A DNA stretch of 64,000 bases from Vulcanimicrobiota bacterium (GTDB lineage: Bacteria > Vulcanimicrobiota > JAJTBE01): the NCBI GenBank assembly GCA_021107945.1, contig JAIORV010000155.1, positions 1 through 64,000 on the forward strand, read 5' to 3'. Made by a program: the position numbers and the translations under genes. Below, piece by piece: positions 8,280 to 33,140 of the stretch. Numbering within the stretch: position 1 is the stretch's first letter; the number at the start of each line of letters is the position of its first letter. The notes under the pieces are model-generated. The model had not been told where the DNA came from and made no database searches. It saw nothing but the letters and a program-made list of their open reading frames with translations.

Positions 8280-8492
8280 AGAATAAACAAAGAACTTCTG
8301 AGTTCATAAATCGGGAAAATATCCCAAAAAACAACTCCCCAAAATTTTTCAAAATTAATTTCAAAACACACTTAAGTTTTTCTCTCCTCTCCTGTAAATA
8401 GATATGATCCGGATCAAGAAAAGCGAGTCAGGAAATAGGCGAAGCTATAGTGAAAGCATCCCGAAAAACAAAAAAGGCAAGGAGTGGTGAAA

Positions 8493-10628: not shown

Positions 10629-12075
10629 ACGAAGCATTTTTCTGATATTATTCTTAGCCCTGGCTTTCTACCTGGCAAAATGGGTCAGGCCCCTGGAAAT
10701 CCTGGTGGGAGTGGGAACAACCCTGGCAGTAATGTTCTTTCTCTACAAAAGATTTGAAGACAGCGGTGATGATGAGGAAGATTACGTAGATGATGATGAG
10801 CTGAAGGATGAGGGATGGGGAGCACCCATCCTTCAGGTGGGGGGTCTGGCAGTAATAATGTGCCTGGTATTCTCGGGAATCTTTACATGGGTTCTCCCCC
10901 CGGAACCGGCAAATGCCCAGGAAGACCCGCAGGTAATCCGGCAGAGGGAAATGACCTTCCAAAAGATTGACACATACACCGACGCCGGAAGCTTCGATAA
11001 GGCTGTGGATATCCTCAACGGTTTTATCAATAGTGGTATCAGGAATGGAGAACTCTCAGGGGAGCAGAAAAGTAAGCTCTTTGCAAGAAAAGTAAAGATA
11101 CTCATTGCCTGGAGCGATAATGAGGAAGATACAAATAAGCGGATGAAGCTGCTTGCCCAGGCGGGGGAGCTGGACAGGCGATATAACACCGGAAATGGAG
11201 ACCTGATTGACGAGAAGGTAAGGAATATAAAACTGGAAAATCGAGATGAAGCTGTAAAGCTGCCAGGCAACTACCAGTTGAAGGTTCATTCCAGCAAGGT
11301 TGCTGGCTTCTCACCAGTAACCATAGAGATGACAGTGTCCGTTCTCGATAATAAGGGAAATACTGTAAAGAATCTCAGGGAGAAAGACTTCAAAGCCCTC
11401 GTTGATGGAGATAAATGCGGACTGGAATTGTCCAGGATTCAACCTTCCCGCAACATTGTAATACTTCAGGACATCTCCGGTTCTATGAAACAGGAGCACC
11501 TGCACAAAGCCTGGATGGGAATAAAGGCTGTAGTCAATAATCTGAAAGAAACCGACAAGTTCTGCCTGGTGGCATTCAACGATAAACCCCACCTTGTCTG
11601 CAACTGGACAGGTAAGGTAGAAAGCGTGGAGAATGCCTTCAAGAAGCTGAAACCGGGAGGAAACACCGCCATATATGACTCAGTTCATTTTGCCCTCAAA
11701 GAAGTGGAGAGATGGGGGAGCGGAAAGAACTACATCATTATCCTCACAGATGGAACCGACAGCAGCAGCAAAAGAAGCCTGGAGCAGATTGTAAAAAAAG
11801 TCAGGGCGGCAAAAGTGCCGGTACTCGTAATTGCTCTCAAAACCAGTGAGTTCAATGCCAATCCCCTGAAAAAACTCTCCGGCATCTCCGGTGGGCAATA
11901 CTTCGAAACCAGGAATGTTACGGAACTCAAAGCACTCTTTGAAAATGCAGCCCGATTTATGGATAACCGTTACACACTCTACCTGAAACCGGATACAATC
12001 AAAGCTACCAGTGAACACACTATTTCATTGACTGTGGGGAGGAACCTGAATGTAAAAGAAACTATCAAACTTTGA
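10621..12075 (+). CDS. Membrane VWA-domain protein, partner of the FtsZ-like GTPase
   Basis: The 484-residue protein has two closely spaced hydrophobic segments at its start (about residues 3-19 and 24-40), an acidic loop rich in Asp and Glu, a third membrane segment (about 60-85), and then an Ala/Asn-rich stretch. The C-terminal half is a von Willebrand A domain with an intact metal-ion-dependent adhesion site: Asp284-x-Ser286-x-Ser288 in LQDISGSM, a later conserved Thr in GGNTAIYDS, and Asp in ILTDGTDSS. The start follows GGAGG and overlaps the end of the FtsZ-like gene, so translation is probably coupled. I infer that it anchors GTPase filaments to the membrane or binds an extracytoplasmic ligand. 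The partner ligand is unknown. Confidence 0.8.
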   Translation: MFKRSIFLILFLALAFYLAKWVRPLEILVGVGTTLAVMFFLYKRFEDSGDDEEDYVDDDELKDEGWGAPILQVGGLAVIMCLVFSGIFTWVLPPEPANAQEDPQVIRQREMTFQKIDTYTDAGSFDKAVDILNGFINSGIRNGELSGEQKSKLFARKVKILIAWSDNEEDTNKRMKLLAQAGELDRRYNTGNGDLIDEKVRNIKLENRDEAVKLPGNYQLKVHSSKVAGFSPVTIEMTVSVLDNKGNTVKNLREKDFKALVDGDKCGLELSRIQPSRNIVILQDISGSMKQEHLHKAWMGIKAVVNNLKETDKFCLVAFNDKPHLVCNWTGKVESVENAFKKLKPGGNTAIYDSVHFALKEVERWGSGKNYIIILTDGTDSSSKRSLEQIVKKVRAAKVPVLVIALKTSEFNANPLKKLSGISGGQYFETRNVTELKALFENAARFMDNRYTLYLKPDTIKATSEHTISLTVGRNLNVKETIKL

Positions 12076-15136: not shown

Positions 15137-15616
15137 ATGAAGAAGAAGATTTACCTACCAAAAACAATGAAGGAGCTGCAATCGCAGGGAAACGACTGGC
15201 TCAAGGAATTATGGATGAGGTATTTCAAGGCTCTGCCGATAATGGCTTGTCCGAGAACGATAAGGACGCTATGGTACAAGATCCAATGTGAGAATCATAA
15301 TCTGCGAATTAAACAGAAGAATATCACCAGGCTGAACCGATATTCAACCGACCCGGACAAGTATATTGAGAAATCATACAAGACCAAGTATCATTTGAGA
15401 AACGGCCTGGAAATTGTGAAGACATACAAGGGTAATCAGTACCGAGTGCTGGTTCGCTCGCCGGGGGAATTTGTCTGCGACAACCAATCCTACAAAACCC
15501 TGTCAGCCGTTGCCAGAGCTATCTGCAACAAGAAGGTCTCCGGCTATGACTTCTTCGGGCTCACCAATAGGCATTATGAAAAGAATATTGTGGAGGATGA
15601 GAAATGCAAAGGATAA
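15137..15616 (+). CDS. DUF2924 protein (copy 1), recombinase partner
   Basis: The 159-residue basic protein carries the DUF2924 hallmarks: an N-terminal LxxLWMRYF helix, a central YxVLV strand and the C-terminal signature SAVARAICNKKVSGYDFFGL. DUF2924 genes are regularly found directly before large serine recombinases in mobile elements, and this one overlaps the recombinase start by 13 bases, so translation is probably coupled. Its role is unknown; a DNA-binding accessory or directionality factor is an inference. It is nearly identical to the copy at 59939-60409, which ends differently. Confidence 0.75.
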   Translation: MKKKIYLPKTMKELQSQGNDWLKELWMRYFKALPIMACPRTIRTLWYKIQCENHNLRIKQKNITRLNRYSTDPDKYIEKSYKTKYHLRNGLEIVKTYKGNQYRVLVRSPGEFVCDNQSYKTLSAVARAICNKKVSGYDFFGLTNRHYEKNIVEDEKCKG

Positions 15617-17520
15617 ACTGCGCCATTTATGTTCGAAAATCCACGGAAAAGGGACTGGAGCAGGAGTTTAATTCCCTTCACAATCAGGAGGAAGCCTGCA
15701 AGAACTACATCCTGTCCCAGGCCTTCAACAGTTGGGAGTACTACAAGACTTATGAGGATGGTGGCATCTCCGGCGGGACGATGAAGCGCCCATCTCTTAA
15801 AAGAATGTTGCATGATATGAAGAAGGGACTTGTTCAGACGGTCGTGGTTTACAAGGTGGACCGCCTTTCAAGGTCCATTATTGATTTTCACAATATGATG
15901 AAAGAGTTCGAGAAGCACAATTGCAGTTTCGTTTCCATCACACAGGCATTCGACACCTCCAATTCTATGGGCAAACTCACCCTCAACATGCTTCTGTCCT
16001 TCGCCCAGTTTGAACGAGAGGTTTCATCGGAGAGAGTCAGGGACAAGATTGCCGCCAGCAAGAAGAAAGGGTTGTGGACGGGGGGTTGCCCGCCGCTGGG
16101 TTATGATCTGTCTGATAAGAAATTGATTCCCAATCCGAAAGAAGCGGAACATGTCAGGTTCATCTTTGAGAAATATCTGGAGGTGAAATCGTTAAGCAAG
16201 TTAAGGGAATTTCTATCGAATACCGATGTGAGAACAAAGAAATGGGTCAGTGAAACCGGCTTTGAGAAAGGTGGAAAGGTATTTTTCTCCTCCATGCTGT
16301 CCCGCCTGCTTCGCTCCAAGGTCTATATCGGCAAAATCGAGAGTAAGAAAGACGGAGTCTCTTACCCGGGAAAACACCAATCCATCATCGACAGGAAACT
16401 CTTTGATCGGGTGCAGTCCCTTATTGACGACAACCGGAATCAGTTTAACAAAGCCTATAACAAAAACGCATATCTTTTGTCCAACAAGATAAGTGACGAT
16501 CGCGGCAATGTATTTAAGAATCAACAATGCTCCAAGAAAAACTCAAGAAAAAGCTTGAAAGTAGGCTCGATAAAATACCGCTATTATGCACTAAAAGGCA
16601 AATATCTGCCCTCAGGCGATGTGGACGAGATTACGACAAAGATTGTCAGGGATCTGCTGGATCATCCCCTGCATAATCTTCTGAGCAGATCCCAGGTCAT
16701 TGAGTTTAAAGCTATAGATTTCCAGTCCCTGACGCCGAACGAGCGGTCGAACCTTATTCGCTCAATGATCAACAGAATAATATATCACAACAACAAGCTG
16801 ACATATTTCATCAAGATTGACGACCTGACTTATCTGAAATCATCCCAGAAGAAGAATTATTTGAACACCACAAATGCCACTACTACATACAATGATAATA
16901 TTGCGAGTACGTCAATTAATGAGGTTTTACCGATTAATCTATCATTGAGATCAATGCAGCACCTAAGAGATAATCCGATGGCGAAAATATCACCACTTAC
17001 GGAGACTGCGATCAATAATGAAGAACATCATAGCATAACAATCGATGCCGACTATCACAACGAAATCGTATGTTATCCCGGCAAGCACAACGAGGCCGGA
17101 ACCCGCCTGAGCAAAGATAATGATGCCATAATTTTTCCGAGCAAAGATGCCCAGGAGTTGATCGTAGAAAAAGAGATTTGCATCAATAACCGCCCTTCAA
17201 CTAACAAATACCTGGGGAGCGGGAAGAAGATGATATCCATCGGGGAGAATTGCGACAACCTCATAAAAGCCCTGAGCACTGGATGGCGTTATGAGAAAAT
17301 GTCACAAAATGGCCAGTCCATAAAGAAAATCGCAGAGGCTGAAAGAATGGCGAAACGGACTGTCTACAAGTACTTGAATCTGAACTACCTCTCACCAAAC
17401 ATTATCAACAGCGTTATGGACAGCGAAGTCCCGACGCACATTAACCTACAGGCACTCTTCAAAATCGCTTCGAAGTATCCCAATTTCAATGATCAGGAAC
17501 GGGTATTCTATGATATTTGA
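15604..17520 (+). CDS. Large serine recombinase (copy 1)
   Basis: The 638-residue protein has the resolvase/invertase catalytic domain (residues about 5-150) with the nucleophile Ser13 in YVRKSTE, VYKVDRLSRS and ERExxSERVRDKI. The recombinase domain follows with GCPPLGYD. The C-terminal region holds a Hin-like helix-turn-helix (SIKKIAEAERMAKRTVYKYL). I see no zinc-ribbon Cys cluster. It would integrate, excise or invert DNA between short att sites. Compared with copy 2 (60586-62343) it has about 50 extra residues between roughly 420 and 510, a divergent linker. RBS GGAGGATGAGAA overlaps the DUF2924 end. Confidence 0.85.
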   Translation: MQRINCAIYVRKSTEKGLEQEFNSLHNQEEACKNYILSQAFNSWEYYKTYEDGGISGGTMKRPSLKRMLHDMKKGLVQTVVVYKVDRLSRSIIDFHNMMKEFEKHNCSFVSITQAFDTSNSMGKLTLNMLLSFAQFEREVSSERVRDKIAASKKKGLWTGGCPPLGYDLSDKKLIPNPKEAEHVRFIFEKYLEVKSLSKLREFLSNTDVRTKKWVSETGFEKGGKVFFSSMLSRLLRSKVYIGKIESKKDGVSYPGKHQSIIDRKLFDRVQSLIDDNRNQFNKAYNKNAYLLSNKISDDRGNVFKNQQCSKKNSRKSLKVGSIKYRYYALKGKYLPSGDVDEITTKIVRDLLDHPLHNLLSRSQVIEFKAIDFQSLTPNERSNLIRSMINRIIYHNNKLTYFIKIDDLTYLKSSQKKNYLNTTNATTTYNDNIASTSINEVLPINLSLRSMQHLRDNPMAKISPLTETAINNEEHHSITIDADYHNEIVCYPGKHNEAGTRLSKDNDAIIFPSKDAQELIVEKEICINNRPSTNKYLGSGKKMISIGENCDNLIKALSTGWRYEKMSQNGQSIKKIAEAERMAKRTVYKYLNLNYLSPNIINSVMDSEVPTHINLQALFKIASKYPNFNDQERVFYDI

Positions 17521-19668: not shown

Positions 19669-20685
19669 CTATGAAAGGATTTGATCTTTTTCTGGGGTGA
19701 TCAAATCAAATAACAGATCGCCCTCCTCATCAATATCCAGGGAAATCCTCTCCCCCTCTTTCACATTCATCCTTGAAACACCGGAGTTTACGAATTTTCG
19801 CACTATCTTTTTGACCTTCCTGGCCCCCTCTTCCTGTGAAAATGCCGTCCTAGCCAGAACTCTCTTCGCAATATCGGATACCTCAATGCTAATCCCCATA
19901 TCTTCTTCAAGAGATCTTATTTCAATATCAAAGAGCTTTTCTATGTCTCCGGCATTTAAACTGTGGAAAGTCACGATATTTGAAAGTCTCCCCAGGAATT
20001 CCGGGGGAAAATATTGCCTGGCTGCCTGGAAAAACTTTTTCTTTTCATCGCCGGATATACCCCGATCTTTTCGAAATCCCACGCTTTCTTCTTCTTTCCT
20101 GTTGCCAAGATTGGAAGTCAAAATTACTATTGAATGTCTGAAATCGGCCTTGAGCCCGCTCTGATCGGTCAGAGAACCTTCGTCCATTATTTGAAGTAAA
20201 ATAGTATAAATATCAGGATGGGCCTTTTCAATTTCATCAAAGAGAACAAGAGAGTAAGGATTTTTTCGGACATTCTCAGTCAGAACTCCGCCTTCCTGGA
20301 ATCCAATATATCCGGGAGGCGCTCCAATGAGCTTGGACTTGGTATGGGATTCGCTCAATTCAGAACAGTCGATTCTGACCATCCTTTTCTTATCTCCGAA
20401 GTGAGCTTCTGCCATGACCTTTGCCATTTCGGTTTTCCCACAACCGCTCGGACCAATGAAAAGAAAAGAACCCATAGGCTTATAGAGATCACTTTTCACC
20501 CTCCGGGCGCTGAGATGGTCCAGCACGGTTCTCTTTGCTTCCTCCTGCCCCACTATCTTTTCCTGTAATGCTTTCTCAAGGGCAGAAAGGTTTCCCTCTC
20601 CCGATCTTACCCTGATCCTTTCAACAGGGATCCCGGTCTTTTCCGATACAATTTCCAAAATAGCCTTTTCGAAAAGTTCTGTCAT
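19669..20685 (-). CDS. ClpB/ClpA-type AAA+ D2 protein (split unfoldase, C-terminal half)
   Basis: The 338-residue protein corresponds to the second AAA+ module of ClpA/ClpB alone. It has Walker A GPSGCGKTE (78-86), pore loop GAPPGYIGF with Tyr126, Walker B LVLFDEIEKAH (Asp150-Glu151), sensor TSNLG, an arginine-finger region PPEFLGRL, and a ClpB-like small C-terminal domain. No D1, N-domain or IGF/L ClpP-docking loop is evident, so disaggregase-like rather than ClpP-linked action is more likely. It overlaps the D1 gene by four bases. I infer that D1 and D2 proteins assemble as a two-ring unfoldase acting on conjugates made by the E1/E2 enzymes of this operon. It is the last gene of the operon. 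Confidence 0.8.
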   Translation of the reverse strand: MTELFEKAILEIVSEKTGIPVERIRVRSGEGNLSALEKALQEKIVGQEEAKRTVLDHLSARRVKSDLYKPMGSFLFIGPSGCGKTEMAKVMAEAHFGDKKRMVRIDCSELSESHTKSKLIGAPPGYIGFQEGGVLTENVRKNPYSLVLFDEIEKAHPDIYTILLQIMDEGSLTDQSGLKADFRHSIVILTSNLGNRKEEESVGFRKDRGISGDEKKKFFQAARQYFPPEFLGRLSNIVTFHSLNAGDIEKLFDIEIRSLEEDMGISIEVSDIAKRVLARTAFSQEEGARKVKKIVRKFVNSGVSRMNVKEGERISLDIDEEGDLLFDLITPEKDQILS

Positions 20686-22007
20686 TTCCTTTCACTCCAT
20701 TTCTTCAGCAATTCGTTTAGCCTCTTAGCCGTAGCATAATCCCCTTCCTCAATAGCTTGCTCTATCTCTCTTTTAATATCTTCAATAGAATCCGCAGGCT
20801 GACCGACTTTGCTCATCTTACTCGTTTCCATACTCACTCTTGCGGCCGCCTCGTCAATCAATCCCAGAGCCTTGTCGGGAAAAGACCTATCCAGGAAGTA
20901 ATACCCGGACACATCAATGGCCATTTGCAGAATTTCATCGGGAATCTCGATCCCGTGGTGATCCTCCAGGTCAGCTCTCAGCCCCTCTAATATCTGCAGG
21001 GTCTCTTCTTCATTTGGTTCATTCACGATTATCTTTTCAAATCGCCTGCTCAACGCTCCATCAGTCTCAATTTTCCTGAAATCCCTTGGAGTGCAGGCGG
21101 CGATTACCCTCATGCCTCCCCTGGCAAGAGCGGGTTTTAATATCTCAACAACCGGGATATCTCCGCGGGCACCAAGCAGGCTTTGAAGCTCGTCAAAGAA
21201 GATTACCAGATGAGGATTGCTCTCCGCCTCTTCAATTATTTCCTTGATTCTATTTTCCACTTCTCCCTTGATCCCGGCCCCGGCCATCAGGTAGCCAGAA
21301 TTTATTTCGATAATCCGGATCCGTTTCAAGGAAGGGGGCACTTCAGCTTTCACAATTCTCTGCGCCAGGCCATATACTATAGTGGACTTTCCAGTACCGG
21401 AATTTCCAACCAAAACTGCGTTGGGCTTTTCTTTTTTGGAGAGAATAACCAGGAGACTTTCCATTTCCCTCTTTCTTCCAATCACGGCGGGAAGTTTCCC
21501 TTCCCTTGCCATCTTTGTGAGATCCCTTCCAAACCGGGACATCTTGAAATCTCTTTCTTTTTCTTCTTTGGGAATCTCGTAAACAAACCGGCCCTTTCTT
21601 GGCATTTCCAGAGCCTTTCCATCCAAGCCCAGAATGGAATCAATCCCGCTGAGGGCTTCCGGCAACTTGGGGGGCGAATCATTGGCAATGATTAGCTTCT
21701 GTCTAAATAATCTTAATCCACTGTGAAAGTCTCCCTTTATCCTCGCTACAAATCGCGTTTTGCCGGGTTGTACAGCGCCACCCTGGATAGATTGCCATTC
21801 CTGGTTTCTTCCCCTATATTGCACATTGCTTCCGATGTACACTTCACAGAGATTTCCGTTCACTCCAAGAAAAACTACGTCAGTTTGAGGCGGCTCGAAA
21901 ACATCTGGCAAGGAAATCGAACTCAAGACGACGAGTCCATTCTGAGTAAATTCCTTTGACAAAGTATTAAAGAGGATGGGATCATTTATGAAAATATCAA
22001 ATGCCAT
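20682..22007 (-). CDS. ClpB-type AAA+ D1 protein with unusual N-domain (split unfoldase)
   Basis: The 441-residue protein has an N-terminal region (about 1-115) unlike the Clp N-domain and not recognised by me, then a ClpA/B D1 module. DLTKMAREGKLPAVIGR is the classic entry motif, Walker A is GNSGTGKST (201-209), and Walker B is LVIFFDELQSL. The D1 pore loop, normally with an aromatic residue before Arg-Gly, reads GIKG. The end has an M-like/UVR-like helix (IEEGDYATAKRLNELL). The start at 22007 follows AAGGAGG; a longer frame reaches 22049. With the D2 gene it rebuilds a ClpB-like enzyme in two pieces. The N-domain is the probable substrate-recognition element, perhaps for the conjugated tag. 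Confidence 0.8.
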   Translation of the reverse strand: MAFDIFINDPILFNTLSKEFTQNGLVVLSSISLPDVFEPPQTDVVFLGVNGNLCEVYIGSNVQYRGRNQEWQSIQGGAVQPGKTRFVARIKGDFHSGLRLFRQKLIIANDSPPKLPEALSGIDSILGLDGKALEMPRKGRFVYEIPKEEKERDFKMSRFGRDLTKMAREGKLPAVIGRKREMESLLVILSKKEKPNAVLVGNSGTGKSTIVYGLAQRIVKAEVPPSLKRIRIIEINSGYLMAGAGIKGEVENRIKEIIEEAESNPHLVIFFDELQSLLGARGDIPVVEILKPALARGGMRVIAACTPRDFRKIETDGALSRRFEKIIVNEPNEEETLQILEGLRADLEDHHGIEIPDEILQMAIDVSGYYFLDRSFPDKALGLIDEAAARVSMETSKMSKVGQPADSIEDIKREIEQAIEEGDYATAKRLNELLKKWSERK

Positions 22008-22578
22008 GTCTTGCCTCCTTGTAAGGTAAGTATTCACGCCCGGCCACAACCTTTATTGGAGAGTAGCAAACCCTGAGTCCCTCTCTTTCAACCGCCCAGG
22101 GCCATATGACAGGGACATCGTCAGGGTCGAAAGTGATAATCGGAGAGAAGAATCTCTTCATTTCGGGATTGTAATCAAATACAGCCTCAATATATCCCAG
22201 GTCTCCCTTTGCAAATCCGGCCTTTTTGCTGAGAAAACCGTTCCAATGAGTAGGATGAGAGTGGATGTCTCCTACCCATATATGCGAATCTTCGATTCGC
22301 AGCCAGAATGCAAGCCTATGATTTCCCCAGTCTGAGTCCGGGCGGAAGACAGATTCACCTGAACCAGAATTATCAAATTCGAACACATCAATGCCTTCCT
22401 GTCCCTTTGGTCCCCAGAGTTTACCTCCAGATTCAGACGGCATATTGCCGATCGTTTCAAGAAGGTGGTTCAATGCCCATTTCGTAATGAAAACAGGAGG
22501 CCCAATCGGGAACCCATTATCTCCGGCTACTCGAAAACTACGCACTTTGTCGATCACCAACCTTTCTTTTATTGTCAC
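21997..22578 (-). CDS. JAMM/JAB (MPN+) metalloprotease, soluble
   Basis: The 193-residue protein carries a JAMM zinc site: Glu49 in SESGGKLWG, His106-x-His108 in GDIHSHP, and Asp126 in KGDLGYI, with Ser117 between. The spacing from the HxH to the Asp is longer than the textbook S-x2-D. JAMM enzymes remove ubiquitin-like proteins or process tag precursors in bacterial E1/E2 operons. It lacks a signal peptide or membrane segment. GTG start at 22578. It overlaps the D1 unfoldase gene by 11 bases and follows the E1 gene by 13 bases. It is clearly paralogous to the JAMM domain at 23564-25042. Confidence 0.8.
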   Translation of the reverse strand: MTIKERLVIDKVRSFRVAGDNGFPIGPPVFITKWALNHLLETIGNMPSESGGKLWGPKGQEGIDVFEFDNSGSGESVFRPDSDWGNHRLAFWLRIEDSHIWVGDIHSHPTHWNGFLSKKAGFAKGDLGYIEAVFDYNPEMKRFFSPIITFDPDDVPVIWPWAVEREGLRVCYSPIKVVAGREYLPYKEARHGI

Positions 22579-22591
22579 CGATGAATTCTTC

Positions 22592-23473
22592 TCATGAAGG
22601 CTTTCCTAGGCATACCGGGCAATTGGGGTCAAATTCCGTCTTAAGCCAAACCGAATCCATTGAAAATAGCATGGATTTAATTTCCCGGGCATAGTCCCTG
22701 GGTTGCACCGGAAGATCACCCAAAATTGCGTCCCATACCATATTTCCCCAGAGATATTCGGGCGAGCACCTTACCATAATATCGTTTCGAAAATCCATCT
22801 CCCGGAAGAATTTGCCCATTAATGAATCTTGCCTCCGCTCCAGGATGGCTACCGAGACTTTGAGGGCAATCATATCAATGAATTGACAGTCAATGATGGA
22901 TCCCCTGGCACCGTGAAGATCGGTTGTTAAATCGCCCTGGCTCTTGAATTCCTGGAATCTTTCCCTGGCGATACACCGGTAGCAAGGCGTGATTCCTGGA
23001 ATTGTCCACACTATACGTCCGCCAAGTGCTCCAATGTGAACACCGATAAAAATTGCAGGAATATTATAGGCAACACTTAGATCGTTCAGTAAAGCCTGAG
23101 CTTTGAACTGGTCGGTACCAGCAATAATCAGGTCTGCTCCATTGACCAATTCCTGGATTTCGTCTCCGTCCATCTGGCAGATGTCCTTTCGAAATCTCTT
23201 AACCTTTACGTCAGGATTAATTTCCTCGATTCTTTTTCCAAGAGCGTCAACCTTGTATTGTCCAATGTCCTTCATTGTATAAACGGTTCTTGAAAGATTG
23301 GATATTTCAACTGTATCCATATCTCCAATGCGAATCTCCGCAGGACAAAGTCGGGCAAGTTTCTCTGTTGCATAACTCCCGGCTCCCTGGCCCACCACGG
23401 TAATCACCTTTTCGTGGAATTCCCTGGAGACAATCCCTTCCAGCCTGCTAATGTATTCTTTCATTGTATCCAT
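22592..23473 (-). CDS. ThiF/E1-like adenylating enzyme
   Basis: The 293-residue protein has the E1 superfamily nucleotide loop VGQGAGS (28-33), the catalytic Asp51 and Arg62 of DMDTVEISNLSRT, the GTD motif (Asp121), and a zinc site formed by CYRC (164/167) and CPVC (285/288). These mark an enzyme that adenylates the C-terminus of a ubiquitin-like protein or peptide and may take it as a thioester. Like Prok-E1 proteins in JAB/E2 operons it has no rhodanese or UFD domain. Neighbours on both sides are JAMM proteases. The start at 23473 has an ATG nine bases downstream as an alternative. Confidence 0.85.
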   Translation of the reverse strand: MDTMKEYISRLEGIVSREFHEKVITVVGQGAGSYATEKLARLCPAEIRIGDMDTVEISNLSRTVYTMKDIGQYKVDALGKRIEEINPDVKVKRFRKDICQMDGDEIQELVNGADLIIAGTDQFKAQALLNDLSVAYNIPAIFIGVHIGALGGRIVWTIPGITPCYRCIARERFQEFKSQGDLTTDLHGARGSIIDCQFIDMIALKVSVAILERRQDSLMGKFFREMDFRNDIMVRCSPEYLWGNMVWDAILGDLPVQPRDYAREIKSMLFSMDSVWLKTEFDPNCPVCLGKPS

Positions 23474-23563: not shown

Positions 23564-25042
23564 TTAAGGCTTTATTCTCTTTCTGAAAGCCAGCAATGCG
23601 ATGGTTATCAACACCAGAACAATCAGGCACCACGCGGGCAGAGTATTATCCCAAAATAGTCCTCCAAATGCCAAAAGGTTCTTATTGATCCACAGAACAT
23701 AGAACTGCGCTATGCGCTCAAGCCAGGTAGGCTGGACAAATGAGATTGTCAAGATGCTTGTCAACGCCACAATAATCCCAATCAAAGTGGAAAAAATGGT
23801 CAATGATGGGAAGGTGTCCAGGGAATCCAATGCATCTTGGGACTTGCTCCAGAGCCCTTTCAGGCGAGGGAGAATTGAACGATCTTGAGCAAGAGCCTGA
23901 CAGGCGTCTTCATTGGAATCAGATTCATGTTTTGGTAGAGGTTTACTCGGAGGTTCCTCTCCCTTATTCGAGGAATCAACTTGAGAAGGTTCATATGAGG
24001 GAGATTGTCTATGGCGCCCACGAGTTTCTGGATTAGAGGGAAAATTTGAATCGGAAATAGCTGTAAAACTGGACATGCTTCTCAATCCCCAGGGAAAATA
24101 GGCATTCAACGACTTGAATATTGCAAGAGCATCAATTAAAGGTAAAACGGGTTGGTAAGGTTGAGAAATTGAAATATTGATATTAATAGGCTGAATGATC
24201 TCTTGCTTTCCCGATTTATCGCAGGAATTCTCATTTACAATCCCTGTCGGTTCTGCATGTCGCTCCTCTTCATTAGAAACTCTGGCTTCCTCTACGATTG
24301 ACTCCTTGTACTCATCGGAGATCCCTGTCCCGGTGGTATTATCTCGATTGGGAAAGGAATCCCGGGTTACAGTCTCTTCGGTTACAATATCTTTTTTGCT
24401 TTCAAGTTCTTTCTCCCAATATGGATTATAAATTCTTTCTGGAAATTTGTCAGCCTTACATACTACGAGTTCTGCAAAATATAATTCAGGCGGATTCCCG
24501 CGCCTGCAAATCCAGGGCCATAGCCTGGGAATCTTGCCTTTTCCGGTATTTGTCAGTATCGGCAGAGCAAAAAACTCCATCCATTCATTCTGCCTGAAGA
24601 CCTCCTCCACATACCCCATGTCCCCAAGACCTTCTCCAGATTTACTGGACGGACGACCAAATTTTTTACCAGGGTGGGTGTGGATGTCGCCGTTCCAGAC
24701 CCGCATAATGGTCTCCGGAACATCGAGATGGTAGTGTACCCTTTCTGAACCCCAATCTTTATCCGGGGCATATACAACCCCATTAGCTTGTCGGGAGCCA
24801 TTGATGTCAAATTCAATCCGATCAAAACCCATCAGGTCTTTTGGACCGAAACCCTTTGCCCCGGTTTCGGGGGGAAGTTTTCCGACGGTTAATAGCAGTT
24901 CCCTTATAGCTTCATTCGTAAAGCACATGGGCAATGGGGACTTTTCCACTTTACTGCCCAGGATATTTCTGGCATCCTCAAGCGAGGCAATCTGGAACTC
25001 CGGGCAATCAGCAAAGCAATTATTGCTTGAGTCACTACTCAC
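23564..25042 (-). CDS. Membrane-anchored JAMM/JAB metalloprotease
   Basis: The 492-residue protein has an N-terminal JAMM domain (about 35-210) with Glu59 in PPETGAKGF, His121-x-His123 in GDIHTHP and Asp141 in LGDMGY. A long low-complexity hydrophilic linker follows (about 225-405, Ser/Asn/Pro/Glu-rich, with a VPLI-like hydrophobic island). Two membrane segments end the protein (about 408-432 and 450-485) with a basic RKRIKP tail. GTG start follows GGAGGAAG. The design places a deconjugating or tag-processing protease at the membrane. It is paralogous to the soluble JAMM two genes downstream. Whether the catalytic domain faces the cytoplasm is inferred from the lack of a signal peptide. Confidence 0.8.
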   Translation of the reverse strand: MSSDSSNNCFADCPEFQIASLEDARNILGSKVEKSPLPMCFTNEAIRELLLTVGKLPPETGAKGFGPKDLMGFDRIEFDINGSRQANGVVYAPDKDWGSERVHYHLDVPETIMRVWNGDIHTHPGKKFGRPSSKSGEGLGDMGYVEEVFRQNEWMEFFALPILTNTGKGKIPRLWPWICRRGNPPELYFAELVVCKADKFPERIYNPYWEKELESKKDIVTEETVTRDSFPNRDNTTGTGISDEYKESIVEEARVSNEEERHAEPTGIVNENSCDKSGKQEIIQPININISISQPYQPVLPLIDALAIFKSLNAYFPWGLRSMSSFTAISDSNFPSNPETRGRHRQSPSYEPSQVDSSNKGEEPPSKPLPKHESDSNEDACQALAQDRSILPRLKGLWSKSQDALDSLDTFPSLTIFSTLIGIIVALTSILTISFVQPTWLERIAQFYVLWINKNLLAFGGLFWDNTLPAWCLIVLVLITIALLAFRKRIKP

Positions 25043-25057: not shown

Positions 25058-25432
25058 TCAGGGGGGATTGGGAAATTTTCCCGATTCCATAAGAATGCTA
25101 AAGCATTGACACCAATAACGGGCTCTATAGAGCGCAGAAGAGAAATCTGGCTGATCCATACCAAGATCAATCAATCCGTCATATCGCAAATGTGAAGTTT
25201 GATATGAGTAAGGGTTTTCGCCCCAGGGATTGTAAATACAATATGCCCTGGCCTGTTCTCCATTGGGAGATGCCTTAATCTCGATCCGATAAATTCGCCC
25301 ATCGGAGTCAGTGAAGTCTTCAATGAAACATAGAATTCCGTCCTCAATGCCGATCAAGGCATTGGGATTAAGGCCCTTCATTTTTTCAATGATCTTATGT
25401 TGAACATCTACTCCATCACTTGTGGGTTCCAT
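25058..25432 (-). CDS. E2-like protein lacking the catalytic Cys (UEV-like paralogue)
   Basis: The 124-residue protein is a clear paralogue of the next upstream gene: NPNALIGIE, the RIYxIEIKASP strand, YNPWGENPYSY, SHLRYDGLIDLG and RARYWCQCFSILMESG all align. At the position of the candidate catalytic Cys80 of the paralogue this protein has Asp89, and it also lacks a ten-residue loop downstream. The UBC-like reading rests on the order strand, proline-rich loop, His motif, Cys site, helix. If correct, it resembles eukaryotic Cys-less E2 variants that act as partners of active E2s. RBS GAGGAG. It lies 15 bases before the membrane JAMM gene. Confidence 0.6.
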   Translation of the reverse strand: MEPTSDGVDVQHKIIEKMKGLNPNALIGIEDGILCFIEDFTDSDGRIYRIEIKASPNGEQARAYCIYNPWGENPYSYQTSHLRYDGLIDLGMDQPDFSSALYRARYWCQCFSILMESGKFPNPP

Positions 25433-25474
25433 TTCTGCTCACTCCTCATTCAGGATTCCCTGATAACTAATATA

Positions 25475-25843
25475 TCATGGATCGGGGAACTCCCCGGATT
25501 CCATTAAGCGGCTAAAAGCTGTGCACCAGTAACGGGCACGAAGGATTGCTGTCTCCACATCCATGGGAGAAGAATAAAGGTCCTTATGAACATCATTTCC
25601 AAGGCACAAGAATTCATCTTCATGCAAATGGGACTCTATATAGGAATACGGATTCTTGCCCCAGGGATTGTAACGGCAGAATCCGATTGCCTTTTTTCCA
25701 TCGGGAGTGGCCTGGATCTCGATCGAGAACATCCTTCCATCAGGATCTATGACATGCTCAACCATGCAAATTCGGCCATCGCTTTCTATACCGATAAGTG
25801 CATTTGGATTTAACTCCTTCATTATTTCTGAAGCTTTGCTCAT
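25475..25843 (-). CDS. E2-like (UBC-fold) conjugating protein, candidate catalytic Cys80
   Basis: The 122-residue protein has an E2-like order: a strand-rich N-terminal half ending in YNPWGKNPYSY, a His-containing turn SHLHEDEFLCLG with Cys80 where E2s place the thioester cysteine, and a C-terminal helix with RARYWCTAFSRLMES. Overall similarity to UBC proteins is weak, so the assignment depends on motif order and on the E1 and two JAMM neighbours. Cys107 is shared by both paralogues and is more likely structural. The start at 25843 follows GGAAAGGAGG; a longer frame to 25924 adds a basic stretch without an SD. It would pass an activated tag from the E1 to a target. Confidence 0.6.
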   Translation of the reverse strand: MSKASEIMKELNPNALIGIESDGRICMVEHVIDPDGRMFSIEIQATPDGKKAIGFCRYNPWGKNPYSYIESHLHEDEFLCLGNDVHKDLYSSPMDVETAILRARYWCTAFSRLMESGEFPDP

Positions 25844-25977
25844 GTTTATCCTCCTTTCCAAAGGTAGGGGAAAAGGGTGGCAGAATATTATGGGTTTGCG
25901 TCTTTTATTCCGCCACCCGATCATCCCATAGCGGCCCCTTACCGAATATGCCCGGGTGGGACCTCCTTGCGAGCCTT

Positions 25978-26172
25978 CTATAAGGCTTCTGGATCCACGT
26001 GATATTCGCCCGATGGCACAGATTGGCGCGCCTGCCTCAGGGCTTCAGCGTCAACGTGATACTCTCCACTAGGAACACTCTGACGAGCTCTCCTCAACGC
26101 TTCAGCATCCACTGCATAAGCCCCCTCAGGCACGACCACACCAACTGCGAGCAGATCTTTCCTTCCTACCAT
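25978..26172 (-). CDS. 64-residue tandem-repeat peptide of the ubiquitin-like operon
   Basis: After a short leader (MVGRKDLLAVGVV) the peptide consists of two full 19-residue units and one partial unit of the form VPSGEYHVDAEALRQARQS, ending HVDPEAL at the stop. The second and third units spell the same residues with different codons (for example Ser as AGT in one and TCG in the other, Pro CCT/CCA, Asp GAC/GAT), so the protein sequence and not the DNA is being conserved. It has no C-terminal Gly-Gly and does not look like a beta-grasp ubiquitin. The start at 26172 follows AAAGGAGG. As the first substantial gene before E2, JAMM and E1, it is a candidate tag, substrate or multi-core precursor. 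Confidence 0.65.
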   Translation of the reverse strand: MVGRKDLLAVGVVVPEGAYAVDAEALRRARQSVPSGEYHVDAEALRQARQSVPSGEYHVDPEAL

Positions 26173-26286: not shown

Positions 26287-26343
26287 TCAAGCTGAGATTT
26301 CCAGGTTCTCAGCATCTACTTCGAACTTCTTCAAAATCGCCAC
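26287..26343 (-). CDS. Tiny leader ORF repeating the FEVDAENLxxxA motif
   Basis: An 18-codon frame (GTG at 26343; alternative TTG at 26332-26334 with a better distance to AAAGGAG, giving 15 codons) encodes a peptide containing KKFEVDAENLEISA. This matches the YxVDAEALxxA core of the repeats in the peptide gene 115 bases downstream. It lies directly behind a likely promoter. Such a short match could be chance, but its place as the first frame of the operon argues for a mini-tag or minimal substrate. Confidence 0.4.
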   Translation of the reverse strand: MAILKKFEVDAENLEISA

Positions 26344-27534: not shown

Positions 27535-28803
27535 CTAAATGCAATTTCCATTGTCTTTTTTAAGTATTTGAAAGTCTTTTTCTACATCTTCTGATTCAAT
27601 TTCCTTATCAAGAGAAGCGCAAATGGCGTATCCTCCCCCTCCAGATCTCCATCTATACAGGAAACATTTCCCGCAGAAAATTTTGGGCATATTTTGATGT
27701 TCACAAAGGACAGCTTTCTGACTTATCTCTGGAAATAGCTGCAGAATCAATTTTCCTTTTTCATCTATATCTTTTCTTATATCCTCCACATGGTTCTTAA
27801 TCTTATCTTTAGTAAAATCCTTGCCGGGATATTCATCATCAATAAATCTGAGTTGTTTTACACAGAACTCTGCTAAATTGGCACATTGGTATCCTGTTTC
27901 TCCTGTCTTTAAGTGTCCTAGCGCTTTATTTTGAAGAGCAAATCCGCATAAATTATCGTTTGAAAGTAAGCACATAGGATTTTCCTTTGCTAAATCTATC
28001 TTAAAGCGTTCAATTATATTTTTTTTATTACTCATATTGAGTGGTGAAATACATTGAATTTTCTCATTTTGAATCTTATTAACGATATTTCTTAGCGTAA
28101 TTGGGGATCTGCCATGCTTAAATATCGTATTAAATGTAACTGCTTGACTTTTATGAAGTAAAAGGGCCATCTGATACTTTATATCTTTTTTTTTAATAAA
28201 GAGACCCATTTTATCTTCAAAAAGTTGTCCCTTTAAAATCGTTACCTCATAAGGCTGAGGCGCTAATCTTTTATCTATATCTTTTCTAATCTGGCGAAAG
28301 GGTTTAACAATGTTATCTAAGACATACTTGATAGTTTCAAGCAGTTGCTTACAGACTTTTTCAGATATATCTTCCGCTTTACCTTTCTTTATAATATATG
28401 GATAAGTGATTCCCGCTTTATGGGCCTTCTCTAAACCCTTCTTTCCTTTAATAAGATCATCATAAGCTGTAACTAAAATTCCTGCAGTTTTATATTCCGG
28501 ATGTCTTTCCTTGTTTTTTATTAAAATTGCTATTCCATCCATTTCCTTATCTGATTTAGAGCGCCCTGTTTCATGAGAAAACTCGTAATTTAGATCAGTA
28601 ATAATAATATCATATTCTTTGCTTAAAAAAAAATCTTCATAATCAGTAAAGCTTTGTGTGTAATCAATATCAATTGTAGCATTATTATCATTTTTTTCTA
28701 GCCATCCCCGTAATTGAGGCTCTATTTGTTCCTTGAAACCATCAATTACTTTGCCAATGTCATCTCCAAAAAGAAGAGTATAATTTTCACCTTGACCTGA
28801 CAT
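27535..28803 (-). CDS. Response regulator with unusual Cys-containing output region
   Basis: The 422-residue protein begins with a receiver domain: acidic residues Asp14-Asp15, phosphoacceptor Asp70 in YDIIITDLN, Thr in ILVTAYDD and Lys in YIIKKG. The C-terminal 270 residues match no output domain I know. They contain a possible winged-helix stretch (about 205-260) and a Cys/His group CEHQNMPKIFCGKC that could bind a metal. The start at 28803 follows GAGGTG. The histidine-kinase gene lies ten bases upstream, so the two form a two-component system closing the long operon. Targets are not evident. Confidence 0.7.
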   Translation of the reverse strand: MSGQGENYTLLFGDDIGKVIDGFKEQIEPQLRGWLEKNDNNATIDIDYTQSFTDYEDFFLSKEYDIIITDLNYEFSHETGRSKSDKEMDGIAILIKNKERHPEYKTAGILVTAYDDLIKGKKGLEKAHKAGITYPYIIKKGKAEDISEKVCKQLLETIKYVLDNIVKPFRQIRKDIDKRLAPQPYEVTILKGQLFEDKMGLFIKKKDIKYQMALLLHKSQAVTFNTIFKHGRSPITLRNIVNKIQNEKIQCISPLNMSNKKNIIERFKIDLAKENPMCLLSNDNLCGFALQNKALGHLKTGETGYQCANLAEFCVKQLRFIDDEYPGKDFTKDKIKNHVEDIRKDIDEKGKLILQLFPEISQKAVLCEHQNMPKIFCGKCFLYRWRSGGGGYAICASLDKEIESEDVEKDFQILKKDNGNCI

Positions 28804-28813
28804 TTTAATCACC

Positions 28814-31588
28814 TCATTCTAAATTCTTAGGAATGTAAATCACAAACTCAGCTAACTGTTCCTGTAGTTCCCATTTACTAACTCTACTATTGTATGGGGA
28901 TTTTTGCCTGTATAGCATATCTAATAAGAATAATATGAATCGTAAACCAAGCCCTGTACTTTCAGAACCAAGATTCTCAATTTCACTTTTTTTGCGCCTT
29001 CCCAAGCAACAAAAGCAAATTGGAAGTTCTAATTTATTAGGTTGAAAGATGGGGGAGATGGGGTCTTTGCAGCATTCGCAATACTCTGGAGCCCGATCAA
29101 TAATATCTGGAAGAGGTAGAGGATTAATAAGCTTCAATTCTACCCAACCATCTTTTTCAGAAGCATTTACGCCAACTTCAATGCTCTTGTTTTTCCAATT
29201 CTCCTCATTTTTATCATACGCTGCATTTAAGGCATTCTTGAGAAGCTCATAAACCACTAAAGAAAGTGCTGTTTTATGAATTGTCATCGTTGAGCAATCA
29301 GTAGAGACTTCAACATTGACAGGATAATTTAGCCAATATTTTTTTACGTGCATACTCTTTTCAATTCGAAGCTTGCTTGCAGATCTCCGCCATTCTGTTT
29401 TCCTAACCCTCTTTTCTATTTTCTTAAGAAATGGTATTAATTCAATACTTTCTGGTTTTGAAAAGAAAGTTTCTTTATTGCCAGATAAAAAGCGTGCAAT
29501 TTCCGAAAAAAAATCTACTTCAAAAGCCCTGATATCGTTTGTATATTTAAAGAACTCAGCATCCGATAGCAGAGATTCCATGGTCATAAACATATTTGCG
29601 TTCTTCTTTACCGTAACGCGGTCAGCATCTGAATTACATTGCATAAATTTATCTATATATTCTTTAATGAGGGGCTTTTCTAATTGGACTTTTATATCGG
29701 GTTTATTCAAGAAATTCATCGCTAAACAAAGGTGATCTGCGACGAAAGAATAGGCAAAAATTTCATTTTTGATAGAGTGGCTTAGCCAACTAGCAAAGTT
29801 TGTAACTTGATTGACTCTTTCTTTTAACATCCTATTCCAATTCTCTATCGCCCAAGAAATAGTCTTGGCAAAATCATCAAGACCCTCTATCAATTCCGAT
29901 TGTATAGTATTCTTGTGAAAGGGAAGAAGAAACTCAATACGGCCGATGATGCCCAAAGGAATTCTAACTCTTGAACAATAGCGCTTCTCCTTTTTATCCT
30001 CATTTTTTCTCCAGACACATTCTTTAAATTTATCACAAACAGCCTCCGTTATTTCTATTAGTGCTGTTTCTCGCAAATCCGGATCAACTTCTGCAATTTC
30101 TATACATCTGTCTGGAGCATAACCACATTCACTCTTGAATTCTTCCTCATCTTCAATCAGGAGAAGTTCCTCATACACATCCAGAAGGTTTTTCTTCAGG
30201 CCCTTGATAAACTCCTTTTCTGATTCCTTCTTGGAAACTTGCCCTATCTTTCCATACAATTTCTCGTTGAGATCTGAGAGGATGGCCTTATAGAAATCCC
30301 TGGTTTTGCTTTTTACCAGGTCAATCAAGTATTCTGCAAGTTTGACTCTTGCTTTATTCTCTTTTTCTTTTCCAAAATAAAGATAAATCAGCCCAAAAAC
30401 TTCCTTATGAATTTTAATAGGAATTATTTCAAGGCTTTTTGCCTTTTCTGTCGGATCCTTAAACGGGAATATGAATATGGTCCTCTCTAAAGGATATATA
30501 ATTTCATTGAGAAAATCCTTATAAATTCCTTCTTCAATTTTATAATATTCTATTTTTTTACTTTCTGGGTTAAACTCTTTTTCACTAAGAAATTCTGGCA
30601 AATTGGATATGGTCTTCCCCAACTTCCATCTCCTCATTTTTCCAATCGTGCCACTTGCTTGCTTTTGATCGAAATATTTCAGTAATAATAAAGGCGAAGT
30701 CCTGTCTTTAAGAAAAGGATAATATTCTTCCTTCTTATGGTTTGTCTTCCAATTTTTAAACTTGGTCTCAAATTCGCTTATCTTCCCAGGACAATTTTTA
30801 AATTCGTCTCTAATATCTCTCAACAATATTTGGCAGAATTCAGAGTTTTCATCAGAAGAGAAGGCTTTTAAAGCCTCCCTTGCTCTTTTTTCACACTGTT
30901 TTGTTTTTTTCCCGAAGATGTAAGTATCAACTACTTCTTTATCTTTCTCTCCTGGACAATAGATGAAATTACGCATTTCACTATCTTCAACCTTATTTCT
31001 TAATAAACAATATAATCCACATTTTTGATTATCTTTTCCACCCCCCCATATTTTTGAATATAATTTGCTGGCTGGTTCAACTAAATTTTCCATATTACTA
31101 ATCGTCTCTTTGAGGTACCAGAATTTCTTCTCCGTTTCCCTCCTTTCTGATCGCTTACATTCTTTTAGAGAATAGTAAATCTTCTCAATTTCCGATTTAG
31201 CAATTTGGTCTCCAAAACGACTTAGAATAGACTCAAATTCCTGCAGTGTATCCTGGTCATAAGAAGATAACACAAAATTTCTCTTCTGCCTTTGAGGCTT
31301 AATGGAGACTTCGATAGTGTATTGGTTACCAGATTTATGTAATGTAATTCCTTCTTCATCCCCATCCATCATATCTTCCACATGAACCTTTTTTTCCTCA
31401 AATTCCGGCTTCCTAAAGATTGTTAAAATCCATTTTCTTATTTCCTCAAAAATAAGATCAAAAAAATCTCTCTCTTCACTTCTAATCATTATCCAGAAGA
31501 CTTTTTCCAGAGAATGTGTCAAGAGATATTCAAAATTTACAGATTTAGTAGAATTCATATAATCGCCTCTATAGTTCTGGAATTCCAT
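28814..31588 (-). CDS. Large cytoplasmic histidine kinase with an inserted zinc ribbon
   Basis: About 924 residues. The C-terminus is a histidine-kinase core: H-box WLSHSIKNEI, N-box YELLKNALNAAY, and G-box STGLGLRF. Between the N and G boxes lies CECCKDP...CFCC, a four-cysteine zinc-ribbon-like insertion in the ATP lid. The long N-terminal region (about 600 residues) has no membrane segments and several Cys pairs, and part of it (about 320-420) may be GAF-like, so the signal is probably cytoplasmic. The start at 31588 follows GGAGG; other starts are 31645, which overlaps the previous gene, and 31558. The partner regulator follows directly. Confidence 0.75.
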   Translation of the reverse strand: MEFQNYRGDYMNSTKSVNFEYLLTHSLEKVFWIMIRSEERDFFDLIFEEIRKWILTIFRKPEFEEKKVHVEDMMDGDEEGITLHKSGNQYTIEVSIKPQRQKRNFVLSSYDQDTLQEFESILSRFGDQIAKSEIEKIYYSLKECKRSERRETEKKFWYLKETISNMENLVEPASKLYSKIWGGGKDNQKCGLYCLLRNKVEDSEMRNFIYCPGEKDKEVVDTYIFGKKTKQCEKRAREALKAFSSDENSEFCQILLRDIRDEFKNCPGKISEFETKFKNWKTNHKKEEYYPFLKDRTSPLLLLKYFDQKQASGTIGKMRRWKLGKTISNLPEFLSEKEFNPESKKIEYYKIEEGIYKDFLNEIIYPLERTIFIFPFKDPTEKAKSLEIIPIKIHKEVFGLIYLYFGKEKENKARVKLAEYLIDLVKSKTRDFYKAILSDLNEKLYGKIGQVSKKESEKEFIKGLKKNLLDVYEELLLIEDEEEFKSECGYAPDRCIEIAEVDPDLRETALIEITEAVCDKFKECVWRKNEDKKEKRYCSRVRIPLGIIGRIEFLLPFHKNTIQSELIEGLDDFAKTISWAIENWNRMLKERVNQVTNFASWLSHSIKNEIFAYSFVADHLCLAMNFLNKPDIKVQLEKPLIKEYIDKFMQCNSDADRVTVKKNANMFMTMESLLSDAEFFKYTNDIRAFEVDFFSEIARFLSGNKETFFSKPESIELIPFLKKIEKRVRKTEWRRSASKLRIEKSMHVKKYWLNYPVNVEVSTDCSTMTIHKTALSLVVYELLKNALNAAYDKNEENWKNKSIEVGVNASEKDGWVELKLINPLPLPDIIDRAPEYCECCKDPISPIFQPNKLELPICFCCLGRRKKSEIENLGSESTGLGLRFILFLLDMLYRQKSPYNSRVSKWELQEQLAEFVIYIPKNLE

Positions 31589-31613
31589 CCAAGATTTGCC
31601 TCCTGGCATACCT

Positions 31614-33140
31614 TCAGGGCAATTGACTACTCCTGCATTTTGCATCTTCTCGATATTTATTGGTAAAATACTTACTCCACTTATATTCCGGGTGGCTCAG
31701 GTAGTAATCCCTTACATTCGGGCGGTGGTGCTTGATCCTGATTTCCCCATAAAGTATTTCACCATTAACCTCTCTCATTCCTTCCATGCGGATTTTTTCA
31801 AGCTCCTGGCCTGTCAAGTGCTTAGTTCTTATTGCCGCCCTTTCAAAAGTGAATAATTCATATTTATTCTCATCAATCAGGTAGCCTTTTTTCTTGCATT
31901 CCCAATAAAAAGGAGTTCCAGGATATGGCGTTACAAGGAAAAACAATGCCATACTCAGTCCACATTCATCTTTGAGATATTTTGCAAATTCTATGGTCTT
32001 TCTTATGTCTTCCTCAGTTTCCTCCGGGAAACCAATCATGAAGCCGCCCTCGGTCTCAATGCCAGCCTCGGTAAACTTTCTGCAGAGCCTGGGGACGTTT
32101 CCCAATTCTTTATGAAAGTCCCTCCATCTTGTTTTATAGTTCTCAACAATCTCGATATTGAGGGACTCCACTGGAAAATAGACCCGGGAACATCCATATT
32201 CAATAATTATGTCTATCATCTCATCGGTTAATCTGGCAAGGTTCAATCCATTCAGGATACTCCAATAGAATCCCATCTTATTCAGCATTTCGAAGACTTT
32301 GACTGACAATTCGGGTTTCAAAAAGACATCGTTATCTTCCAGGAGAATTTCGTCATATCCCAACTCCTTGAGATTTTCCAATTGGTCTTGAATCCTATCG
32401 AGATCAAAAAAACGGCATTTATTTCCAGTCATCATATAGGATGCACAAAAGGTACAAGCCCAATCGCAACCCCTCGAGAAAACATAATCAGTAATAAATT
32501 TCCCCCTGATCACTGCCGTATGGAAGTGTCTATTGGGATAAAGCTCCTTCTTGAAAATGGTGTAGTCCGGGTCGGGTAGTGCATTGAGGTCGGGAACTCT
32601 TTCTATTTGATTCTTTAGAGTTTCCCCATCAATATTAGTTGCAATGCCCGGGACATTACAAAGATCTATCTTTCCTTCCAGATACTCCATTAACTTTACA
32701 ATGGAAAGTTCTCCCTCTCCCCTTGCAATGAAATCTATGTTCTTGTCTAGCAAAATCTTCTCATAATCTCCAGTGGCGTGAGCGCCACCAATAAGTGTTA
32801 CAATTCCGGGATTAACTTCCTTGACGAGTCTGCAAATATCCCTCACCGCCGGGAATTGTGGGGTCCTAATATTGGTAACCCCGACAACCTGGGGATTATA
32901 CCGGGCAATTCTTTTTTTTATTTCATCATAATCCAATCCCACCCGTATTAAATCGTTCTTCACAAAAATCTCGTTTTCAACTGCCTCGGCAGTGGCGTCT
33001 ATATACTCAACTTCATATCCATTTCTTTTCAGCACACTGGACAAAAATGCACAAGCCAGACTGGGGCCGATCCGGAAATAGTCGATTTCGGGATTATAGA
33101 ATTCGTGGGGTTGGATCAATAGTATCCGACTAACCTTCAT
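31614..33140 (-). CDS. B12-binding radical SAM enzyme (class B methyltransferase type)
   Basis: The 508-residue protein has an N-terminal cobalamin-binding-like domain (about 1-150, with LIGGAHAT) and a radical SAM barrel with the cluster motif Cys225-x3-Cys229-x2-Cys232 in FSRGCDWACTFC. The ordering and length match class B radical SAM methylases, which act on unactivated carbons in peptides, antibiotics and lipids. The C-terminal tail is variable and may bind substrate. The start at 33140 follows GGAG with five-base spacing; two GTG/ATG choices lie within six bases. Its place in the operon suggests methylation of the operon's product. It lies 151 bases after the preceding radical SAM gene, the largest gap in the operon, in which I found no small gene. 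Confidence 0.8.
   Translation of the reverse strand: MKVSRILLIQPHEFYNPEIDYFRIGPSLACAFLSSVLKRNGYEVEYIDATAEAVENEIFVKNDLIRVGLDYDEIKKRIARYNPQVVGVTNIRTPQFPAVRDICRLVKEVNPGIVTLIGGAHATGDYEKILLDKNIDFIARGEGELSIVKLMEYLEGKIDLCNVPGIATNIDGETLKNQIERVPDLNALPDPDYTIFKKELYPNRHFHTAVIRGKFITDYVFSRGCDWACTFCASYMMTGNKCRFFDLDRIQDQLENLKELGYDEILLEDNDVFLKPELSVKVFEMLNKMGFYWSILNGLNLARLTDEMIDIIIEYGCSRVYFPVESLNIEIVENYKTRWRDFHKELGNVPRLCRKFTEAGIETEGGFMIGFPEETEEDIRKTIEFAKYLKDECGLSMALFFLVTPYPGTPFYWECKKKGYLIDENKYELFTFERAAIRTKHLTGQELEKIRMEGMREVNGEILYGEIRIKHHRPNVRDYYLSHPEYKWSKYFTNKYREDAKCRSSQLP

Follow-up and report, generated by a model that had tools for sequence, protein, structure and literature searches.

The minus strand of the window, the 64,000-nucleotide stretch of DNA analysed here, carries a tandem pair of paralogous E2-like proteins (E2a and E2b) which show a cysteine and an aspartate, respectively, at the predicted active-site position. 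The pair belongs to an operon encoding, in this order, a short repeat peptide, E2a, E2b, a JAB protein, an E1, a second JAB protein and two AAA ATPases (AAA1 and AAA2). Taking together the pair, its motif, the predicted E2-like topology and the synteny with a related locus, all of them results of computation, the operon may be read, with roughly even chances, as a compact ubiquitin-type conjugation system equipped with paralogous E2-like proteins, a peptide tag and a split ClpC-like unfoldase.

The two E2-like genes occur as intact tandem ORFs at positions 25058-25843 of the minus strand. E2a (25475..25843, 122 aa), the candidate active conjugating enzyme, starts with an ATG preceded by the ribosome-binding site GGAAAGGAGG and contains His72 and, in SHLHEDEFLCLG, Cys80, which is encoded by the TGC codon at 25604..25606. 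E2b (25058..25432, 124 aa), a candidate non-catalytic partner in this lineage, shows Asp89 in SHLRYDGLIDLG, encoded by the GAT codon at 25166..25168. Both proteins share 54% identity over 120 aa (E = 1e-44), which is no chance match at the sequence level, and Cys80 and Asp89 fall in one alignment column with no gaps nearby; the ORFs and this alignment confirm the paralogue pair with opposed Cys80 and Asp89 described in the initial annotation. His72 of E2a, located at the position of the histidine of the E2 HPN motif, is retained in E2b and invariant in all four sequences, and a second cysteine, Cys56, is equally invariant in the four known family members. Judged from their codons, both genes are clearly coding and look to be under purifying selection. 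Owing to the difference between pS (0.81, saturated) and pN (0.29) in the comparison of the paralogues, E2b appears free of any sign of decay.

When about 85,000 species genomes were scanned with the JAB alignment, a single relative emerged, the locus L028 from a Planctomycetaceae MAG, in which the gene order matches that of the window: peptide, E2, E2, JAB-E1 fusion, AAA1 and AAA2. Identities between the two loci amount to about 52% for the E1, 42-52% for the JABs, 40-47% for the E2s and 30% for the AAAs, and their all-against-all comparison yielded no conserved gene beyond the peptide, E2s, JAB, E1 and AAAs. L028 adjoins genes for a NikA-like protein and for a TrwC relaxase, and the ORFs farther out read as an ATPase resembling VirD4/TraG and as a tyrosine recombinase. 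With such neighbours, L028 seems to belong to a mobile element; the operon is probably mobile. Beyond the window and L028, no E2 homologues were found in plasmids, phages and IMG/VR contigs, and no further ones occurred among 149 genomes of the window's own phylum or in two sets drawn from the Planctomycetota, one of 392 genomes at the level of the phylum and one of 398 at that of the class.

The tandem E2 pair is thus present in two phyla. Since both E2 proteins of L028 carry a cysteine (in GHVSESGFICLG and MHLYGDGQICLG), the tandem pair is conserved and the C/D split is not. In this respect, the conservation of Cys80 on which the initial annotation had made its reading depend is borne out by both homologues found, E2a and E2b of L028. 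Among the four known sequences, the aspartate is confined to E2b of the window, and its positional counterpart in L028 carries a cysteine (MHLYGDGQICLG), contrary to the idea that the C/D difference could be fixed. The proposed pairing of an active and a variant E2 therefore stands for this genome but not as a fixed C/D feature: the inactive-partner reading would apply at most to the lineage of the window, and the pairing is, as far as these sequences tell, a local change and no fixed design. A quartet tree of the E2 proteins prefers the within-genome pairing, the alternatives not being rejected (AU p 0.08 and 0.10).

The assignment of the pair as E2-like is likely, and is based on four sequences from two loci (the window and L028), which are all that are known. 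In the AF2 model of E2a, built from an alignment including the two L028 homologues (pLDDT 85, pTM 0.80), the predicted topology consists of an α-helix, four β-strands, an active-site loop and a long α-helix, and the same topology is predicted with moderate confidence (pLDDT 77) for E2b of L028. Structure prediction, as suggested initially, thus delivered an E2-like topology for both models but no significant Foldseek match: none was found against the PDB at E <= 0.001, and two E2-fold entries, the central domain of FANCL (TMq 0.31-0.35) and, with a TMq of 0.40, the UEV of Vps23, are listed only at E > 1, so that these matches are to be taken as suggestive and nothing further. The profile comparison seems more telling. 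Using hhalign, the GQICL stretch was set on the catalytic GSICL of four eukaryotic E2s (p 0.004; human UBE2D2, UBC9, UBE2N and UBE2L3) and on GLLCL of Prok-E2_B (p 0.0025), the real score exceeding those of 200 out of 200 column-shuffled profiles against each of the two E2 references. A catalytic-type cysteine in register with that of E2 enzymes follows the fourth strand in E2a and in both L028 proteins, an aspartate occupying this place in E2b of the window, and the H-to-C spacing of 8 (H-x7-C-L) is shared by a curated Prok-E2_B protein (PHVEKDGLLCL, locus L031). The E2-like proteins gave no match in Pfam, NCBIfam or PADLOC, and relaxing the Pfam threshold to E <= 10 brought up no E2 family either; they reach no curated cut-off of the Prok-E2_A to E Pfam families, and a two-sequence profile (E2a and E2b) found nothing among the PDB sequences. 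Taken together, the predicted topology, the motif and profile evidence and the E1/JAB context support the E2-like identity advanced in the initial annotation.

The operon genes that follow the E2 pair, all on the minus strand, encode two JAB proteins, an E1 and two AAA proteins. The first JAB/JAMM-like protein (23564..25042) reads as an N-terminal domain of about 190 aa, followed by a linker and a hydrophobic C-terminus which is probably membrane-anchoring, and the second JAB-like protein (21997..22578) is 40% identical to it. The residues of the JAB metal site (Glu, HxH and Asp) are invariant in all three sequences, with an S-to-D gap longer than usual; Pfam Prok-JAB stays below its cut-off and the PADLOC JAB match is weak. 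The E1/ThiF-like adenylating enzyme (22592..23473) matches PF00899 at E = 1.7e-33 and has conserved ThiF nucleotide-binding motifs. Compared with the PDB, its profile finds UBA5 and MoeB best, ThiF being matched as well and BubCD, MccB and Cap2 ranking lower; PaaA is also matched. Its two CxxC pairs (CxxC...CxxC) form a probable zinc site, and the invariant Cys196, the candidate thioester cysteine, would sit in a region resembling that of the catalytic cysteine of UBA5. AAA1 (20682..22007), a ClpB/ClpC NBD1-like ATPase with a conserved N-domain of its own, and AAA2 (19669..20685), an NBD2-like one, are the counterparts of ATPase modules one and two of ClpB/ClpC, split over two genes, and ATPase motifs were found in the pair. 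AAA2 exhibits a VGF tripeptide at a position which, from the sequence and from knowledge of the family, we take to be the ClpP-loop; it occurs in the window and is absent from L028. The genome of the window encodes ClpP. Two additional candidates from this genome were discarded, a further JAB candidate (C30) being spurious and located among Rhs-like genes, and a second E1 (C49) being an ordinary MoeB/ThiF protein.

The first gene of the operon encodes the short repeat peptide (25978..26172, minus strand), a candidate modifier which is conserved in L028. In the window it consists of 64 aa, with three copies of the 19-aa unit VPxGxYxVDxEALRxARQS, the last one cut by the stop codon, and in L028 of 40 aa; VPxGxYxVDAxxLxxAR units occur in both. 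The cross-phylum motif VPxGxYxVDAxxLxxARxxVPxGEYH shows 17 identical residues out of 27, the alignment score of 89 compares with a maximum of 43 among 5000 shuffles, and the peptide reaches E = 1e-7 in the all-against-all comparison of both loci. Because the three repeat copies differ from each other mostly at synonymous sites (pS 0.64-0.95, pN 0.19-0.29), the protein sequence of the peptide is under selection. The repeat pattern continues in frame past the TAG stop, at 25939..25977 of the minus strand, with KARKEVPPGHIR and then TAA; the TAG at 25978-25980 may be a nonsense mutation of recent date, a codon that is read through or an error in the sequence. Upstream of the peptide gene, a mini-ORF (26287..26334, minus strand) with a TTG start and an upstream AAGGAG encodes MKKFEVDAENLEISA, which resembles one repeat unit (YAVDAEAL). 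The window peptide scores 26.7 bits against Pfam FlgM (cut-off 25) over 26 residues only, the L028 peptide has no FlgM match and the NCBIfam FlgM model stays below its cut-off; we regard the match as an unproven resemblance of short motifs.

The peptide lacks a Gly-Gly end and is too short for a β-grasp fold. Six-frame comparison of the window and L028 loci disclosed no hidden Ubl gene, and no β-grasp Ubl conserved between the two operons and no match to a Ubl family were found. Beyond the genes named above, the two loci have none in common, which leaves the peptide as the sole candidate for the modifier unless a Ubl gene lies elsewhere. The peptide-like matches that other genomes yielded are weak and appear to be fortuitous, falling seemingly in unrelated frames.

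The most economical reading of these data would be a conjugation pathway, comprising the E1, an active E2a, the JABs and the unfoldase, which acts on or with the peptide. According to this scheme, the E1 (22592-23473) would adenylate the C-terminus of the repeat peptide (25978-26172), possibly after trimming by a JAB protein, and the peptide would be handed over to Cys80 of E2a for conjugation to a target. E2b, whose Cys is replaced by Asp but which is otherwise conserved, would form no thioester in this lineage and could act as a partner or adaptor in the manner of a UEV, that is to say as a pseudo-E2 keeping both the fold and the histidine in the window. The two JAB proteins would process or remove the tag, and the split ClpC-like AAA1 and AAA2 would unfold the tagged proteins, possibly for ClpP. 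All of these reaction steps, like the modifier role of the peptide, the partner role of E2b and the link to proteolysis, are what we infer from the operon. A more specific proposal has the E1-E2-JAB machinery conjugate, in place of a β-grasp protein, a peptide that is short, repetitive and non-globular and derives from a multi-copy precursor cut by the JABs; it further includes a dedicated split ClpC-like unfoldase for the tagged proteins and a tandem E2 pair with a lineage-specific pseudo-E2. It is put forward tentatively, as less probable than not.

The main rival to conjugation is a RiPP-like pathway, in which the peptide would be a precursor modified itself by the E1, E2-like and JAB proteins, as MccB does on MccA, with the AAA proteins serving for maturation or immunity and no protein target being involved. 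A short repeated peptide beside an E1-like enzyme, repeats resembling those of multi-core precursors and an E1 profile that also matches MccB and PaaA all speak in its favour. Two E2-like proteins, the JABs and a ClpC-like pair are, however, better suited to conjugation and unfolding, the conserved operon comprises no transporter, and the E1, as read from its sequence, begins at the ThiF domain, with no domain for precursor binding at its N-terminus, so that such a pathway is considered rather unlikely.

Doubts on the pair itself concern either the role of E2b or the fold. Instead of an inactive partner, E2b could be a relaxed duplicate heading for loss or could act through the invariant Cys56, consistent with the greater branch length of the Asp copy (0.57 vs 0.31) and with a Cys56 column invariant in four out of four sequences, which the Cys80 column is not. 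Against this explanation, to which we give the same low probability as to the RiPP-like pathway, the ORF is intact with a pN of 0.29 for a pS of 0.81, Cys56 is placed by the model in strand four, outside the active-site loop, and the profile alignment sets Cys80, not Cys56, on the catalytic cysteine of E2. It is less probable still that the proteins have no UBC fold, that their ICLG motif is coincidental and that they fulfil another role, e.g., as an adaptor of the AAA ATPases. The missing Pfam E2 family match at E <= 10 and the Foldseek searches devoid of a significant match would agree with it, but the shuffle-controlled profile match that places Cys on Cys, the E2-like topology of the models and the occurrence of the operon with E1 and JAB in two phyla all point to an E2-like identity.

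In eukaryotes, a Cys-bearing E2 is paired with an E2-fold protein devoid of the cysteine, as in the UEV-containing UBE2V-UBE2N complex. The window resembles this arrangement by a Cys-bearing E2-like protein next to a Cys-less one, the partnership being putative here, and differs from it in that the Asp variant occurs in one lineage only and has a Cys-bearing counterpart in L028. The parallel with eukaryotes, qualified as striking in the initial annotation, is weakened by an earlier account of bacterial operons with E2 folds that are RWD-like, lack the cysteine and are inactive, Cys-less E2-fold proteins having already been proposed in bacteria (PMC1779556). Bacterial E1/E2/JAB operons were described as types 6a-6e by Iyer et al. 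2006 (PMC1779556), type 6e combining a polyUbl with an inactive E2-like protein. Like the present operon, these types gather an E1, an E2-fold protein and a JAB, often on mobile elements, and include Cys-less E2-fold members; the JAB-E1 fusion of L028 has its equivalent in the polyUbl type (PMC11354881). In contrast, the present operon possesses tandem E2-like paralogues, has a short repeat peptide where these types have a β-grasp Ubl, and includes a ClpC-like ATPase divided into a pair of proteins; its E2 proteins fall outside all Prok-E2 Pfam models. BilABCD also uses a Ubl, BilA being a two-domain Ubl (PMC11354881). BilABCD/BubCD and the CBASS Cap2/Cap3 proteins share with the operon the kinds of enzymes and an E1 whose relatedness shows in the profile search (the PDB matches include BubCD and Cap2), but differ by the conserved Ubl missing here, by the additional AAA pair and second E2, and by E2 proteins which have no PADLOC match in the present case.

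Pupylation, which relies on Pup, PafA and Mpa, employs a glutamine-synthetase-like Pup ligase and not E1/E2 enzymes. It is likened to the present system by a small non-globular tag, a proposed one here, and by an AAA unfoldase, and is distinguished from it by this ligase, as opposed to the E1/E2-type enzymes found here. No description of a peptide-E2-E2-JAB-E1-ClpC-like system was found in a literature search which covered the key papers in part. If the peptide is a modifier, ubiquitin-type enzymes would work without the ubiquitin fold, the history of the enzymes would be separable from that of the tag, and bacteria would possess, in addition to tmRNA and Pup, a further peptide-tagging route that leads to unfoldases. 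Along with its Cys/Cys relative, the C/D pair represents a small natural experiment on the origin of a pseudo-E2 beside an active E2.

Other regions of the window contain further genes worth mentioning. As read from the sequence, an ORF at 8484-10628 of the plus strand shows the tubulin/FtsZ-like signature GGGVGSGT and is followed at 10612-12075 by a membrane protein of the VWA type, and a 1698-aa protein on the same strand (2700-7796) combines a NACHT-like P-loop region with numerous HEAT-like repeats and resembles a STAND-type NTPase. On the minus strand, 27535-31645 encodes two large proteins that look response-regulator-like and histidine-kinase-like, with no NCBIfam matches. Finally, two very similar serine recombinases occur at 15604-17520 and 60586-62343, each preceded by a terminase-like stretch and by a small gene that is likewise similar in the two copies, which suggests that a mobile element has been duplicated.
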